30,575 bases of DNA. Source: a virus. The notes beneath the pieces were generated by a model. That model ran no database searches and was not told the origin of the DNA. It saw only the letters and a program-made list of their open reading frames with translations. The position numbers and the translations under genes were made by a program. The stretch is taken from positions 1-30,575 of the IMG/VR virus record IMGVR_UViG_3300049216_000581, one strand, 5' to 3'. Below are positions 16,002 through 22,638 of the stretch, one piece after another. Within the stretch, counting starts at the first letter, position 1; every line of letters starts with the position of its first letter.

Positions 16002-16234
16002 GCCATCGCTCCTTTCAACGCGAGCTCGTGATTGGCCCGAGTTTCGACGGCGCGGCGGAAAGCCTCTTTCCGCCCGAGGCGCGCGATGTTGAATCTCCTC
16101 ACCCGCCCGGCGTTGACCGTGAAATAGGACACGGGCTTGCCGTCGCGAATGAACGCCGAATAACCGACGCCGACCACGCCGGTCCGCGATCGCCCCGTCG
16201 GTCGCTTGTAGAAATAGGGCGCCCTGGTTCTCAT
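15998..16234 (-). CDS. AP2-like DNA-binding protein
   Basis: 78 residues from ATG 16232-16234, which overlaps the MuB-like stop as ATGA; a longer frame is a shadow. The pattern RTGVVGVGYSAFI (residues 17-29), a further strand, then RRFNIARLGRKEAFRRAVE (46-64) fits an AP2-type fold: three strands followed by a helix, as in many small phage AP2 proteins. Basic overall (Arg-rich). Probably binds DNA; target unknown. Confidence 0.6.
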   Translation of the reverse strand: MRTRAPYFYKRPTGRSRTGVVGVGYSAFIRDGKPVSYFTVNAGRVRRFNIARLGRKEAFRRAVETRANHELALKGAMA

Positions 16235-17232
16235 CGGCACCCTCTCACATGCGTCATGGCCCGGCTGAAGGTTTCGAACGTCACAGCCTCCCCGTCGGCA
16301 ATCCAGATCGTCCGCGCGCACACCTGGCGCAGAAACCCGAAGTACCCAAGGGCCGGCGCATGACGCATCGCTTCCTCAACCGCCTTCTTCATATCGGCGC
16401 CGCTGAGATCGAGTTTGCCCTTGAGGTAGATCTTCACGTCCTCCTCGATGAACCGCAGCCGGATGCGCTCCGCCAGGCGGTTGCGGGTCAGCTGCCGCGC
16501 CTCCTCGTAGGCCGTCCGTTCCAGGCGCGCCCAGAGCGGCGGCATGGCGAAGATCACCACTTCACCCGGGCTTTCGTTGATGATCGTCTTGAGCGTGTTG
16601 AGGCAGCTGGGCCCGAGATGATGCCCCTCCTCGATCAGGAGCGCCTTGCGCAACTCGTTGAATTTCTCGAGCCCCTTCTCCTCCTTCTCGTAGGCCGACA
16701 GCGGAATATCAATGCGCCCTTGCGCCTTGAGGATCGAGGTCCACATCGCCGACGGCCGGTCGTTCCAGGAAACCGAAGCCTTGATCTCGAGGCAGCGCAT
16801 CCCGTACATCTCGAGCAGCGCCTTTTTGCAAAACGTCTTGCCCATGCCCGTGTCGCCCAGGACCGGGATGAAACGCGCGATCGAGTTGGTGTTGCTCGTC
16901 TCGAGGAAAACCCGCTTCAACTCGAGCGGCCCTTCCATGTCGGTATAGATTTTCTCGCCGGCGTCCTCCTGGCCCATGGCTTCCAGGAACTTGATCGCGC
17001 ACGTGTATTCCGTGAGCCACTTGTCGAGCTTGAGTTCCTTGAACTTCTCGCTCTGGTCGGGATCCTCCGCCGCGGCCAGGATGTTTTTGTAGGTCTTCGT
17101 CGAGCCCAGGGCCGAGCAGCGGCGCAGCAGCTCGCCGTCGGACCATTTCCGGGCCAGCTGGATCTCCCGCACCCGCCGGACGATATCCTTCAGCTCCTCC
17201 GCCTCGATTGAGTTGTACAGTTCAGGAGCCAT
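16231..17232 (-). CDS. B: MuB-like AAA ATPase, transposition target protein
   Basis: 333 residues from ATG 17230-17232; the upstream 46 codons of the frame are non-coding in character. MuB-type proteins bind target DNA and bring the transposase to new sites. Seen: an N-terminal helical DNA-binding-like region (1-80), Walker A GDTGMGKT (126-133), Walker B ALLIEE followed by GHHLG (197-207), then a sensor-like strand (VVIFAMPPLW) and a C-terminal helical lid region. Length and order (after transposase) fit MuB (312 residues). Overlaps the small gene before it by 11 bases. Confidence 0.88.
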   Translation of the reverse strand: MAPELYNSIEAEELKDIVRRVREIQLARKWSDGELLRRCSALGSTKTYKNILAAAEDPDQSEKFKELKLDKWLTEYTCAIKFLEAMGQEDAGEKIYTDMEGPLELKRVFLETSNTNSIARFIPVLGDTGMGKTFCKKALLEMYGMRCLEIKASVSWNDRPSAMWTSILKAQGRIDIPLSAYEKEEKGLEKFNELRKALLIEEGHHLGPSCLNTLKTIINESPGEVVIFAMPPLWARLERTAYEEARQLTRNRLAERIRLRFIEEDVKIYLKGKLDLSGADMKKAVEEAMRHAPALGYFGFLRQVCARTIWIADGEAVTFETFSRAMTHVRGCR

Positions 17233-17416
17233 GGCCGTCTTCCTCCTCGCTGTCTTCGTTACCGAAAGCGGCCGCCATCTGGCGATCCTCGTCCGGGTCA
17301 GGCCGGTAAACATCGAGCACGCGGCCCTGGCGCACGTACCGCGGATCCTTCTCCTTGCGCAGCGGACCACCCAGCACGGGCGAAAGACAGGCGATGGTGA
17401 GGGCGAAGTTAGCCAC
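17222..17416 (-). CDS. Small acidic protein between A and B, unknown
   Basis: 64 residues, GTG start (17414-17416), overlapping the gene before by 8 bases and the MuB-like gene by 11. A mixed N-terminal half is followed by a strongly acidic tail (EDSEEEDGHG). No family recognised. Position between transposase and MuB suggests an accessory of transposition or its control. Confidence 0.5.
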   Translation of the reverse strand: MANFALTIACLSPVLGGPLRKEKDPRYVRQGRVLDVYRPDPDEDRQMAAAFGNEDSEEEDGHGS

Positions 17417-17718: not shown

Positions 17719-19587
17719 CTATGGGCTGTCGCCGGGATTGGCTTCAGCAAACTCACGTTCCAGCCGGGCCATGTAGGCCGGGTCGGATGAAAGGGGTTGG
17801 GCAGTCCTGGCGGGAGTTGTGGCCCCCAGGTTCCGGCGCTGCCCGCGCCGATGAGTAATGGACGAACTTATGTCGTTCTCGGTTGTGCTTCTGGGTCCTG
17901 GCCCTCCTTGGTTGCTTGAAAAATCCTCCACGGTCGCCGAGCCGCCTGCGCCATCGCGCGCCTGCGTCACCCGCGCGATACGCCTGGCGCCGATGCCGAG
18001 GGCACGGTATTCGCTACGCACGGCCTTCTCACAGGCCTTGCGCCATTCGAGTTCATCCACCATCGCCTGGGAGGCTCGGCCGCCCTCGGGATCGAGCCCG
18101 ATCGCGAAGGTCGGGATACCCTCGGTCAGGTCGGCCGAATAAATCGGTAATTGTTCCTCGTGGAACTTTCGTTCCCGCATCGGCACCATCGTCGCGCCGA
18201 GGCCCGCATTCTCGCGGTCGAAGTAAACCGCCATGCGGTTGCCCTCCTCGCGCAAAAAGCCGGGATGCCTAAATACCCACGCCCCGCGGGTGCGGTCCGG
18301 TCGCACGTAACGGACGAAGGCTTCGCCCTTCGCAATCGTCGCCTGGGCCCGGTCGCGCGAGAAAAGATAAGTCTCCTCGGGCGTCAACCGGCGCAGCTGG
18401 TCCCCGCGCTCCTTCAGGCCGCGCTCGTAGATCTCCGCCGGCACGCCGTTGTAGATCGTCCCGCGCACTTCCCGGTGCGCCAGGGCGACCAGGCGCTTCT
18501 CGCCCTCGTCGCACAGGGCCGCATAGGAAAGGAAGTGATTGCGCGGATCGCGCCGGCCCTGCTGGCACTCCATCCAGAGCTTCGTCTCGCGCTCCATCTC
18601 GCCCCGCTTCGCGCCGATCTGCCCGGGGATGTTCGTGCACAGGCGCTGGAAAAGCCGGAACCGGTTCTCGATGATCTTGCTCGCCGGCGTCTGCGCTTCG
18701 AAGATCCGCAGGCCCAGCGCCGACATGCCGCCGAACCGCTCCGCATTGGACGTGTGCCCGGCTGCGATCGGCGTCCCGCGCAGCAGGTTGCTTTTCCAGA
18801 TACCGCGCTCCCAGCGCTCGCCCAGGGCCGGCTTGAAAATGTCGCGATATGATTGGCCCACCCATTGCCAGATATCGTCCGCGCGATACGAGTCGCGGTT
18901 GCGGACCACAAAGCAGAATGACTGCGGGAAAAGCGATCGCACATCGATCTGCACCAGGAACTGGCCGCGGAATGGCCGCACACCAAAACGATCACTGCAG
19001 GGATCGCCGCCCTGGGGCCAGTCGATCCAGCCGACGTAGTTGTTGGACATGTCGTCCCGTTCGGAAAGATCGCCGACCAGGAGCGGTTGCTCGTGCCCGA
19101 GCGCATCGAGGTAAGTTAGGGTCCGATGCGTGGTGACAAATTTCCGCGCAGCTTTCGGACCCTTGTGGAGTGCCTTCGCGGCCTCCGACACATCGAGCTG
19201 ATCCATCAGCGATCGCGGCATCGAGTCCGACCGGCGCCGCTTGTTGATGAAATCGGCCACCTCCTGCCGGCACCCGGGCAGCGCTGCGAGCATTTCGAGG
19301 GACAATTTCTTCGAGCTGGTCTGCACGTAAAAGCCGCGCGCCTTGGTCAGCTCCCACTCGTTGAGCGCCGGGATCGCCGGCGGCCGGCCGCACGCCGTGT
19401 AATCGACCCGTAGCCCTTCAAGGCCTCCCGCGGCGTAGTAGCCGCGCCACCGATAGACATTCGACTCTTTTTCACCAACAATCACGCACGCTTGGCGAAG
19501 GGTCGATCCCTTCTCCATTAAAGCGGCAATCCGAGCAAGAATCGCCTCGCGCTCGAGCGCACGCGTCATCGCATCGATCGGAGGCAT
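17719..19587 (-). CDS. A: MuA-like DDE transposase
   Basis: 622 residues (MuA has 663). It integrates and replicates the phage by transposition. The N-terminal HTH region (10-55) is MuA Ibeta/Igamma-like. The RNase H-like core starts with VGD (D173, aligned by eye with MuA D269). The third acidic residue is E307 in SKIIENRFRLFQ. The middle residue is normally Asp in a DN motif; here WERGIW places Glu260. A C-terminal beta-barrel lies at 430-480, then a variable Ser/Arg-rich tail. The start ATG has GGGAGGG 8 bases upstream. The variant middle residue is a by-eye alignment. Confidence 0.9.
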   Translation of the reverse strand: MPPIDAMTRALEREAILARIAALMEKGSTLRQACVIVGEKESNVYRWRGYYAAGGLEGLRVDYTACGRPPAIPALNEWELTKARGFYVQTSSKKLSLEMLAALPGCRQEVADFINKRRRSDSMPRSLMDQLDVSEAAKALHKGPKAARKFVTTHRTLTYLDALGHEQPLLVGDLSERDDMSNNYVGWIDWPQGGDPCSDRFGVRPFRGQFLVQIDVRSLFPQSFCFVVRNRDSYRADDIWQWVGQSYRDIFKPALGERWERGIWKSNLLRGTPIAAGHTSNAERFGGMSALGLRIFEAQTPASKIIENRFRLFQRLCTNIPGQIGAKRGEMERETKLWMECQQGRRDPRNHFLSYAALCDEGEKRLVALAHREVRGTIYNGVPAEIYERGLKERGDQLRRLTPEETYLFSRDRAQATIAKGEAFVRYVRPDRTRGAWVFRHPGFLREEGNRMAVYFDRENAGLGATMVPMRERKFHEEQLPIYSADLTEGIPTFAIGLDPEGGRASQAMVDELEWRKACEKAVRSEYRALGIGARRIARVTQARDGAGGSATVEDFSSNQGGPGPRSTTENDISSSITHRRGQRRNLGATTPARTAQPLSSDPAYMARLEREFAEANPGDSP

Positions 19588-19926: not shown

Positions 19927-20355
19927 TCAACCACGGCCCACCGACTTCCCGCCGACAAATGCGGTTCCGGTTTCAGTGCCGGGGCCGGTCAACCTGGTTT
20001 CACTCAGAAACCCTTCTACTGGAAACTCAGTATCCGTGATCTCGCAGCAGTATTCCCAGGCTTCTTGGACAAACATAAACTGGCTAACGACGGAATCGCC
20101 GGGCCCTATCACTTTCCATGGGAGGTCGGCGCCTCGAGATGGTATTGGCCCGCTTAGCGTGCTCCCTGTTAGGAGGCGGATTTCCTCGTCTGTGGCATCT
20201 TCGCCGAACTCGAGAAGCAAAACTGCTCTCTGATGCGCAGTTGCCTTGTCGTCACAATTAAAGAGGCAGTTTGGAACCTTAAAGTGAGGTGCGTCACATT
20301 CCCGGGCAAACCACGCCCGTACCGCACCATCCTCCTGGCGAATTTCGTAACTCAC
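19927..20355 (-). CDS. Early-operon protein, unknown
   Basis: 142 residues from GTG 20353-20355, chosen because it overlaps the ParB-like stop as GTGA and has GGAGAGAGG just upstream; an in-frame ATG at 20365-20367 would add four residues. Acidic protein with a Cys-containing middle (CDAPHFKVPNCLFNCDD) and an aromatic segment (FVQEAWEYCCEI). No family recognised. Lies between the ParB-like and transposase genes. Confidence 0.6.
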   Translation of the reverse strand: MSYEIRQEDGAVRAWFARECDAPHFKVPNCLFNCDDKATAHQRAVLLLEFGEDATDEEIRLLTGSTLSGPIPSRGADLPWKVIGPGDSVVSQFMFVQEAWEYCCEITDTEFPVEGFLSETRLTGPGTETGTAFVGGKSVGRG

Positions 20356-21176
20356 GCCTCTCTCCATTTCTTCTTCGCGATCCGCTGCAGTTCGAGGGGT
20401 GCTTCATCGAGAATTGCCGCCCATTCGTGTTCAATGGCGACCTTTGCAGCGGAATCGAACTCACCCTTTGCCCATCGGCTAAAGCCTTCCCGGATGGAGG
20501 AAAATGCGCGGGGCAAAATTCCAACGAGCGTTCCCTGAATCATTCCGGCGTAGATCACGGCGCCGCGCCGCGACCCGGCTTTCAAACCAGTCTTGAAGCC
20601 TGGGTAAAGGCGGGATATAGGAACCCCGTCGTTGCAAATGGCAAGTTCGATCCTCTTCCACTCATCAGCCGTTGCCTCCCGCCGCATCTCAGCTAATTGA
20701 TCGAAGTATTCGCGCGGAACCTTGTATCGCTCAGCAAGTTGCCTGAAACTGTTGACAATATCGCCCGAAATTGGAGAACCATTCTCCAATTTCTTTGGAC
20801 GTCCCGCCCTACCGCCGCCGCTCATGGCCAGGTCGGGATGCAGCTCGAGGATAAAAAGTACTTTGCGCGATCGGGTCATGTTCGGAGCAGTTACGCGGTT
20901 CTCAAAAGCAAACGCCCTGACCTCGGCATCCGTCTTCATGTTGACGACGCTTACCGGCACGTCATCCAGCTCAAGAGCCCGCGCGATTTCGAGTCGTTCG
21001 CGCCCATCGATCACTTTGTTCTCTTCGGTGATGATCAAAGGGATCTGAATGCCATTCCTCTCGACCGAGGCGGTCAGGACAATCCTTTCGGCCTCGGTCA
21101 GGCGCGGGAAATCTTTGAGTGCTGGGTGAAAATCGAGCGCGGTAACATCTTCAGTTTCGTTTGTAGTGGTTTTCAT
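20352..21176 (-). CDS. ParB-like nuclease-domain protein
   Basis: 274 residues. The N-terminal domain matches ParB/sulfiredoxin-like folds: L-x-x-SVERNGIQIPLII (36-49), then VIDGRERLEIARAL (55-68; normally DGxxR), and a strand with DDVPVSVV. A central helical part (RKVLFILELHPDL) and an HTH-like block (FRQLAERYKVPREYFDQLA) follow, then a basic C-terminus. ParB-like genes sit next to transposases in several Mu-like phages. Here it follows the Ner-like gene and may act in control, segregation or DNA cutting. ATGA overlap with the Ner-like gene. Confidence 0.75.
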   Translation of the reverse strand: MKTTTNETEDVTALDFHPALKDFPRLTEAERIVLTASVERNGIQIPLIITEENKVIDGRERLEIARALELDDVPVSVVNMKTDAEVRAFAFENRVTAPNMTRSRKVLFILELHPDLAMSGGGRAGRPKKLENGSPISGDIVNSFRQLAERYKVPREYFDQLAEMRREATADEWKRIELAICNDGVPISRLYPGFKTGLKAGSRRGAVIYAGMIQGTLVGILPRAFSSIREGFSRWAKGEFDSAAKVAIEHEWAAILDEAPLELQRIAKKKWREA

Positions 21177-21397
21177 TTGGAAAATGGAAGAGGAAGGCCT
21201 AATGCGCGGCAGATGCGCTTGACGACCTTGGGCATTTTCTCGGAATGGATTGCCCGGCTGACCGTATTCCGGTGGTAGCCAAGATCGCGAGCGAGGTCCG
21301 AGACGGTTGTTAGGCGTGGGTGAAGGCGAAGTGCCTTTTTAACTTCAGAAGCAAATTTACCTTGTATCGTCGTCGTCATGCTGTTACCGATGCACAT
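21173..21397 (-). CDS. Ner/Cro-like HTH regulator
   Basis: 74 residues. A helix-turn-helix lies at about 31-51 (TVSDLARDLGYHRNTVSRAI), followed by a helical C-terminus. First gene of the leftward operon and divergent from the repressor, the place of Mu Ner. Start ATG at 21395-21397, with a weak purine run (AGAGAG) upstream; an in-frame ATG at 21377-21379 is an alternative. Probably shuts off repressor and early transcription. Confidence 0.75.
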   Translation of the reverse strand: MCIGNSMTTTIQGKFASEVKKALRLHPRLTTVSDLARDLGYHRNTVSRAIHSEKMPKVVKRICRALGLPLPFSK

Positions 21398-21401
21398 AAA
21401 G

Positions 21402-21417
21402 TGCTCTCTGGTGAGCA
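21402..21417. promoter_or_regulatory. Operator-like palindrome TGCTC-N6-GAGCA
   Basis: Perfect 5-base inverted repeat TGCTC TCTGGT GAGCA covering the predicted leftward start point and the early leader. An additional GAGCA lies 23 bases away at 21436-21440. A short GCAC-N5-GTGC palindrome (21392-21404) overlaps the start codon. Likely repressor or Ner site. Confidence 0.65.
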
Positions 21418-21420
21418 GAA

Positions 21421-21449
21421 TAAATACGGATCAGCGAGCAATGCGTCAA
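21421..21449 (-). promoter_or_regulatory. Leftward early (lytic) promoter
   Basis: On the minus strand: -35 TTGACG (21444-21449), a 17-base spacer and -10 TATTTA (21421-21426), close to sigma70 consensus. The predicted start is near 21414, about 17 bases before the Ner-like ATG. A TGCTC half-site lies in the spacer (21436-21440) and a full palindrome covers the start point. Confidence 0.7.
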
Positions 21450-21457
21450 CAACAAAA

Positions 21458-22114
21458 ATGAGCAAAGAGATAACAATAAGCGAGCGAATTAAGAAACTCC
21501 GTGCTCGTTTCGGGCTCACTCAGGAGGAGTTAGCGCAAAACATGAGGTTCACGAGGAGCTATATTTCACAGTTGGAAGCGGGAGTGAAGGAACCGGGCCC
21601 GCGTTTTATTAAAAAACTGCTCGCTTGTGAGCAATCTCCGGAACCGATTAAATGGCAAATGACGGAAGGAGAAGGAGCTGAGCTGACGGAGACGTCCTCT
21701 TCTGAATACAATTTACCGACCGTAAAGGCGGTCCCTCTAATCTCCTGGGCACAGGCTGGTCTCGCGACCGAGTTCGAGGAAATACCGGAGGATTGGCGAG
21801 AGTGGATCTCTATCCCTATAAGTGATCCAAAGGCCTTTGCCATTGTGCTGCGTGGCGATTCGATGGAACCACGTTTTCAGGAGGGAGATATTGCGGTTCT
21901 CTTGCCATCCATCACTCCCCGAAATGGTGACTTGGTCGTTGCCAACATCAGGGATGAAGGCTTCGCCTTTAAAATTCTCAACCTTATCGGCGGCGACCCT
22001 AATCAGATCAAGCTTACCTCTTATAATCCGGTTTATTCACCAATGGAGTACCCAAAGGAAAAATTCTTTTGGATTTACCCCGTGGATAGCGTAACTAAAC
22101 GAATCAGGAGATAA
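21458..22114 (+). CDS. LexA/CI-type phage repressor
   Basis: 218 residues from ATG 21458-21460; upstream codons of the frame are intergenic. XRE-type HTH at 10-45 (FGLTQEELAQ, FTRSYISQLEAGVK). S24 peptidase domain at 88-218, with an Ala100-Gly101 cleavage site in SWAQAG, Ser135 in GDSMEP and Lys172 in FAFKIL, so all parts for RecA-stimulated self-cleavage are present. It should maintain lysogeny and be SOS-inducible, unlike Mu c. No Shine-Dalgarno site is seen. Local GC is visibly lower than in structural genes. Confidence 0.92.
   Translation: MSKEITISERIKKLRARFGLTQEELAQNMRFTRSYISQLEAGVKEPGPRFIKKLLACEQSPEPIKWQMTEGEGAELTETSSSEYNLPTVKAVPLISWAQAGLATEFEEIPEDWREWISIPISDPKAFAIVLRGDSMEPRFQEGDIAVLLPSITPRNGDLVVANIRDEGFAFKILNLIGGDPNQIKLTSYNPVYSPMEYPKEKFFWIYPVDSVTKRIRR
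21618..21633. promoter_or_regulatory. Second TGCTC-N6-GAGCA site inside repressor gene
   Basis: TGCTC GCTTGT GAGCA, the same five-base arms and the same six-base spacing as the intergenic site, about 216 bases away and within the repressor coding region. It may be an auxiliary operator for looping or autoregulation. Confidence 0.5.
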
Positions 22115-22116
22115 TC

Positions 22117-22638
22117 ATGCCAAAAATTCTCATAGCCGTTCTGTTCTCAGCTTTTGTCGCAACAGCAAATGCTGATGGCCCGTCGCCATCTTTAGCCCAA
22201 ACCACCTCATCAAATTCAGATGAGCAAGCCTTCGAGGCGGCCGCTGGTAAATATGTATGGATAGACGGAAGGGTCGTGCCCAAGCAAATTGCTGGGACGG
22301 CTCAATTCAAGGTCACGTTGATCGGTGAAGCTGATGTTACCGATAGCCATGGTAATCCGCTTGGGCATGGAAGTTACTGTAAAAAGGATAATGGTGCGGC
22401 ATTTGGAATGGAGCAGGTGTTTTTGGTAGGTGTTAAAATTCCACCTGGGGACACTCCTACTATCGTCCATGCTATTTATGTGAAGGACGGCACGGCGATT
22501 TCTACTGTCGAATCCGAGGGCCAAGCGCAATCAGTATATCATCAAAATCTTCTTCTTACCCAGGATGGAGTGGCCGTTTGCAGGGTGGCTCAGCCAATCA
22601 CAATTGATCAGTGGCGTAAGGCAGGCTCACCACAATAG
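22117..22638 (+). CDS. Secreted protein co-transcribed with repressor
   Basis: 173 residues with a signal peptide (hydrophobic residues 3-17, ATANA before the likely cut at 19-20). The mature part is beta-rich with three Cys, a Lys/Asp-rich loop and no known domain. It starts 2 bases after the repressor stop and has AGGAG 6 bases upstream. The region is AT-richer than the rest. This looks like a lysogeny-expressed cargo gene (moron), perhaps altering the host envelope. Function unknown. Confidence 0.75.
   Translation: MPKILIAVLFSAFVATANADGPSPSLAQTTSSNSDEQAFEAAAGKYVWIDGRVVPKQIAGTAQFKVTLIGEADVTDSHGNPLGHGSYCKKDNGAAFGMEQVFLVGVKIPPGDTPTIVHAIYVKDGTAISTVESEGQAQSVYHQNLLLTQDGVAVCRVAQPITIDQWRKAGSPQ

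Follow-up and report, generated by a model that had tools for sequence, protein, structure and literature searches.

The locus described here raises the question of whether a repeated palindrome, TGCTC-N6-GAGCA, beside a phage repressor gene is the operator of a lysogeny switch, and whether the second copy of this palindrome, inside the repressor gene itself, has a part in that switch. The locus is on the IMG/VR viral contig IMGVR_UViG_3300049216_000581; the window is the whole stretch of DNA analysed, positions 1 to 30,575 of this 30,575-bp record. The relatives of the contig lie in Verrucomicrobiota, and the contig belongs to a virus of these bacteria. Domain and PHROGs annotation finds MuB-like and Mu F-like proteins encoded on it (the Mu F-like gene lies outside the switch and the leftward operon), and the phage is putatively a Mu-like transposable phage.

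The first copy of the palindrome (site 1) is located between two divergent genes. The rightward gene (21458–22114, plus strand) encodes a repressor of 218 residues with an HTH_3 domain and a peptidase S24 domain, and the leftward gene (21173–21397, minus strand) encodes a Ner-like HTH protein. Downstream of the latter, also on the minus strand, are the genes for a ParB-like protein (20352–21176, domain and PHROGs annotation), a putative transposase of 622 residues (17719–19587), and a MuB-like AAA ATPase (16231–17370, with matches to AAA_22 and to phrog_296, a DNA transposition protein). The repressor, ParB-like protein, transposase, and ATPase are all present, in the same order, in the related loci L001 and L002. 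Directly after the repressor, the window encodes a short protein that appears to carry a signal peptide (22117–22638, plus strand), and L001, L002, L004, and L009 have one of similar size, also with a signal peptide, at the equivalent place; it could be a surface or exclusion factor expressed by the lysogen.

Apart from its N-terminal HTH, the putative transposase matches no family in Pfam or PHROGs. Its catalytic domain was not recognized by the domain search, and the predicted structure (pLDDT 49) is too poor for use. The protein has highly conserved core motifs in Verrucomicrobiota phages (ERDDMSNN, DSYRADDIWQWV, KIIENRF, and QIG..RGEME). Its relatives are in viral contigs and in a Spartobacteria genome, and a search of the annotated phage collection gave no match for the transposase of the window or for that of L009. 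Judged from these sequences, it may represent an undescribed transposase family.

The sequence-only reading had described two perfect copies of the palindrome within 232 bases and only near matches elsewhere, and a motif search bears this out. Site 1 (TGCTCTCTGGTGAGCA) is at 21402–21417 and site 2 (TGCTCGCTTGTGAGCA) at 21618–21633, with no other exact TGCTC-N6-GAGCA in the 30,575-bp record. The two sites are identical at 14 of 16 bases, and both fit TGCTCNCNNGNGAGCA. Of 200 dinucleotide shuffles, 11 contained the palindrome once and none contained it twice. Among palindromes with 5-bp arms and gaps of 0 to 20, TGCTC is the only same-arm pair within 300 bp at a gap of 6; at other gap lengths there are a few GC-rich same-arm pairs. 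The switch was found to contain no further repeated palindrome of comparable quality.

Single half-sites are also clustered here. There are seven exact GAGCA/TGCTC half-sites in the 250 bp from 21402, compared to a maximum of six (in 4 of the 200 shuffles). On the plus strand, GAGC starts at 21413, 21436, 21460, and 21482, giving spacings of 23, 24, and 22 bp, similar to the operator spacing in lambda OR. The first of these is in site 1, the second in GCGAGCA (21434–21440), the third in ATGAGCA on the start codon of the repressor (21458–21464), and the fourth in a degenerate GCGAGCG inside the repressor gene (21480–21486). Half-site scans find another, ACGAGCA, on the minus strand (21502–21508), likewise within the repressor gene, and the significance of the last two is uncertain. 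The outer halves of these secondary sites are poor; the promoter has one perfect palindrome together with half-sites.

The putative leftward promoter, TTGACG-N17-TATTTA, is present on the minus strand as had been described (21421–21449, with TTGACG at 21449–21444 and TATTTA at 21426–21421). Its predicted start point, near 21414, is within site 1, and GCGAGCA lies in its spacer, both in agreement with the earlier description. That it is a strong promoter, as was also proposed, is not supported by the sequence: TATTTA matches the −10 consensus at 3 of 6 positions, the overall match is 8 of 12 at N17 and reaches 9 of 12 only with N19, and a consensus promoter scan did not report it. Its −35 element is found at an identical offset in six loci (the window, L022, L028, L100, L024, and L104), as TTGACG, TTGACT, or TTGACA, and as TGGACA in L024. 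This conserved position supports a real leftward promoter. A search of the switch for a rightward promoter, for the repressor, gave nothing convincing.

When the repressor and the ParB-like and MuB-like proteins were used as queries, no close relatives were found in viral contigs. The relatives compared here share roughly 30–40% of the repressor sequence with the window, and their switch regions were aligned by the offset from the TQ codon of the repressor HTH. A half-site on the repressor start codon (RTGARCA, at −59) is shared by the window, L028, L102 (GTGAGCA), and L100 (ATGAACA). The half-site at −79 to −83, GCGAGCA in the window, has counterparts in L028, L102, L100, and L024, and that between −102 and −116 in L028, L102, and L022, where TGTTCACGAATGTGCA lies as far from the HTH codons as site 1 does in the window. 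Full 5-6-5 palindromes are present in L109 (TGCTAACAAATTAGCA) and L020 = L002 (TGTTCAAGCGCGAACA), and L024 has one with a single mismatch (TGCTCACTAGTGAACA); L021 = L001 carries the 5-6-5-like TGTTCTAGCTCGAATA. The motif was not found in the switch regions of L101, L104, L112, and L115.

In the 90-bp switch regions of eight relatives whose recognition helix is of the R[NS]Y type, TGAGCA, a motif derived from the window alone, occurs 8 times compared to 0.61 in shuffles (0/500), the signal coming mostly from L028 and L102 and the independent relatives being few. TGARCA occurs 12 times compared to 1.93 (0/500), a count weakened by the motif having been picked after the regions were viewed. The values for control tiles of the same loci are 0.09 and 0.12, respectively. 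Copies of GTGAGCA in the Ner-like genes of the relatives (about −235 to −260) encode V-S of the recognition helix and were excluded. Conservation in relatives had been named as the check on the palindromes; the intergenic array is retained at matching positions, and the intragenic copy has no clear counterpart.

An accident of sequence, or an RNA hairpin or terminator in place of an operator, could be considered for these palindromes, as there is a weak terminator-like call over site 1 on the minus strand. The stem would have only five pairs, however, with no proper T run after it and with the predicted start point of the promoter inside it. Moreover, neither the presence of two exact copies nor the half-site cluster falls within the range of the shuffles, and the half-sites recur at matching positions in relatives. 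We regard this explanation as highly improbable. The intergenic motif is very probably a conserved phage-switch operator array of the CI/Ner type at a divergent promoter.

The most probable ligand of this array is the repressor. Its two domains score above the cut-off (PF01381, 5.8e-11; PF00717, 9.1e-19), and among solved structures it is related to the 434 and lambda repressors, its HTH to that of 434 repressor. The sequence features of a CI/LexA-type S24 repressor are found, with an N-terminal HTH, a C-terminal peptidase S24 domain, the catalytic residues Ser135 and Lys172, and the Ala100-Gly101 cleavage site, the residues being invariant in relatives. In the repressors of L024, L026, L028, L101, L102, and L109, an extra segment of roughly 60–80 residues separates the DNA-binding domain from the S24 domain. 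In some relatives this segment resembles a second, degenerate HTH, and it is missing in the protein of the window.

The Ner-like protein matches PF13693 (HTH_35) with 6.6e-4 and 20.1 bits, below the cut-off of 25 (21.0 bits for its homolog in L028). Its structure model is a helical domain like that of lambda repressor, with weak E-values to solved structures. Its N-terminus aligns with those of relatives from the Met codon at 21379, which is probably the start codon rather than 21397. Its recognition helix has the strongly conserved sequence R[NS]xVS, which resembles R[NS]Y[IV]S of the repressor. The residues in the repressor and Ner-like helices are RN/RN in L028, L102, and L109 and RS/RS in L100 and L022; the window has RS/RN. 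The matched pairs are few and related to each other. Because the recognition helices of the two proteins match, they may read the same half-sites, as do lambda CI and Cro.

Another arrangement would have the Ner-like protein alone bind the array, with the S24 repressor binding elsewhere or through other contacts. The conserved R[NS]xVS helix is in keeping with this, as are the R[NS]Y repressors of L121–L131, which have no Ner-like neighbor and also no half-sites found upstream. Such an arrangement is nevertheless quite unlikely, as no other repeated palindrome as good as this one was found in the switch, the 5-6-5 geometry fits a dimeric lambda-type repressor, and L002 and L001, in which the helices of both proteins are different, have a different site that is still 5-6-5-like. 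Six of the loci without a Ner-like neighbor (L121, L122, L123, L126, L127, and L131) have the helix DRSYxSQ[VL] and a common upstream motif, approximately CGTGTAGTTTTGAG or CGTTTAGTTTTG. In L113, a perfect palindrome, TGTAGAAATCTTTCTACA, and additional TTTCTGTAG / CTACAGAAA repeats are located upstream of the S24 repressor, and the palindrome is probably a different operator.

The status of site 2 is another matter. The sequence-only reading had taken it for a looping site, and both sites could be real operators that act jointly, either by looping of the DNA or as a roadblock within the repressor gene. In favor of this, site 2 matches the palindrome perfectly, and within the initial 180 nt of the gene there are four half-sites compared to a synonymous expectation of about 1.1 (P 0.003 or 0.0006), although three of the four are the half-site on the start codon and the two arms of site 2. 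However, site 2 corresponds to the repressor codons L-L-A-C-E-Q, and a perfect site arises in this gene in 7.7% of synonymous-codon permutations, or 12.7% when the codon usage of the phage is sampled. The extended consensus is also fixed by the amino acids here, and E-Q or E-H is common at this position among related repressors. No palindrome was found at this position in the repressor genes of relatives beyond a two-mismatch match in L022. In addition, the two sites are 216 bp apart from center to center, and site 2 is poorly phased for looping because this distance corresponds to about 20.6 helical turns. Joint action of the two sites appears unlikely, and a role of site 2 in looping is unsupported; coding explains the copy about as well, and it may be an accident of coding. 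Of the repressor/Ner circuit proposed from the sequence, the analysis supports the operator array at a divergent repressor/Ner-like switch, retained in relatives, but not the looping or the strength of the promoter.

The switch shares features with two well-known systems. As in the lambdoid CI/Cro switches (434, lambda OR), sequence and gene context place a dyad over a promoter where two regulator genes diverge, between the gene for a Cro-like protein and that for an HTH_3 and S24 repressor related to those of 434 and lambda. In contrast to these, the switch of the window is on a transposition module, and its secondary sites are merely half-sites. To our knowledge, TGCTC-N6-GAGCA differs from the known lambdoid operators. 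As in the c/Ner region of phage Mu, the repressor is opposite a small Ner-like HTH gene that heads leftward genes for a putative transposase and a MuB-like ATPase. The repressor is HTH_3 and S24, however, not of the Mu c type, and the Ner-like protein is below the Pfam HTH_35 cut-off. In Mu, the sites of Ner and of the repressor differ. Homologous S24 repressors, with approximately 32% identity, are found in Vibrio phage vB_VpaM_MAR, Shewanella phage M16-3, and Pseudoalteromonas phage PY3, the comparison covering the repressors only. The LexA box of Verrucomicrobia is TGTTC-N4-GAACA. Its arms are the same as those of the L002 site and differ from TGCTC/GAGCA of the window, and the spacer is 6 rather than 4 bp in both the window and L002. 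On account of the 6-bp spacer, a LexA-box reading of the TGTTC sites in L002 and L001 was dropped. Literature searches on this switch found nothing.

Taken together, we consider it likely that the intergenic array is the operator of a lysogeny switch in which the repressor closes the leftward promoter and the Ner-like protein shares the half-sites. A dimer of the HTH_3/S24 repressor would bind site 1, at the predicted start point of the leftward early promoter, and would probably also occupy, with lower affinity, the half-sites that lie within the promoter spacer and a short way upstream of the −35 element. As a result, the Ner-like, ParB-like, transposase, and MuB-like genes would be off. Upon DNA damage, RecA-stimulated self-cleavage by the S24 domain would remove the repressor and open the promoter. 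The Ner-like protein, as the first product of this promoter, probably reads the same half-sites and would limit early transcription as Cro does. This model works without the intragenic palindrome.

The operator is new in sequence and known in kind, and the switch is of an ordinary type. A more unusual design is doubtful: a Mu-like transposition module in Verrucomicrobiota that is controlled by CI/Cro-style logic, with near-identical, co-evolved repressor and Ner helices, one shared half-site array at a spacing of about 23 bp, the repressor start codon (ATGAGCA/GTGAGCA) serving as a half-site, and a genuine intragenic operator. If the two proteins do share their half-sites, these loci would make up a limited group of naturally occurring repressor/Ner/operator triplets, with DNA specificity and both regulators having changed together. 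The array gives a concrete candidate operator for phages that infect Verrucomicrobiota; these bacteria are common in soil, and few studies have dealt with their phages.
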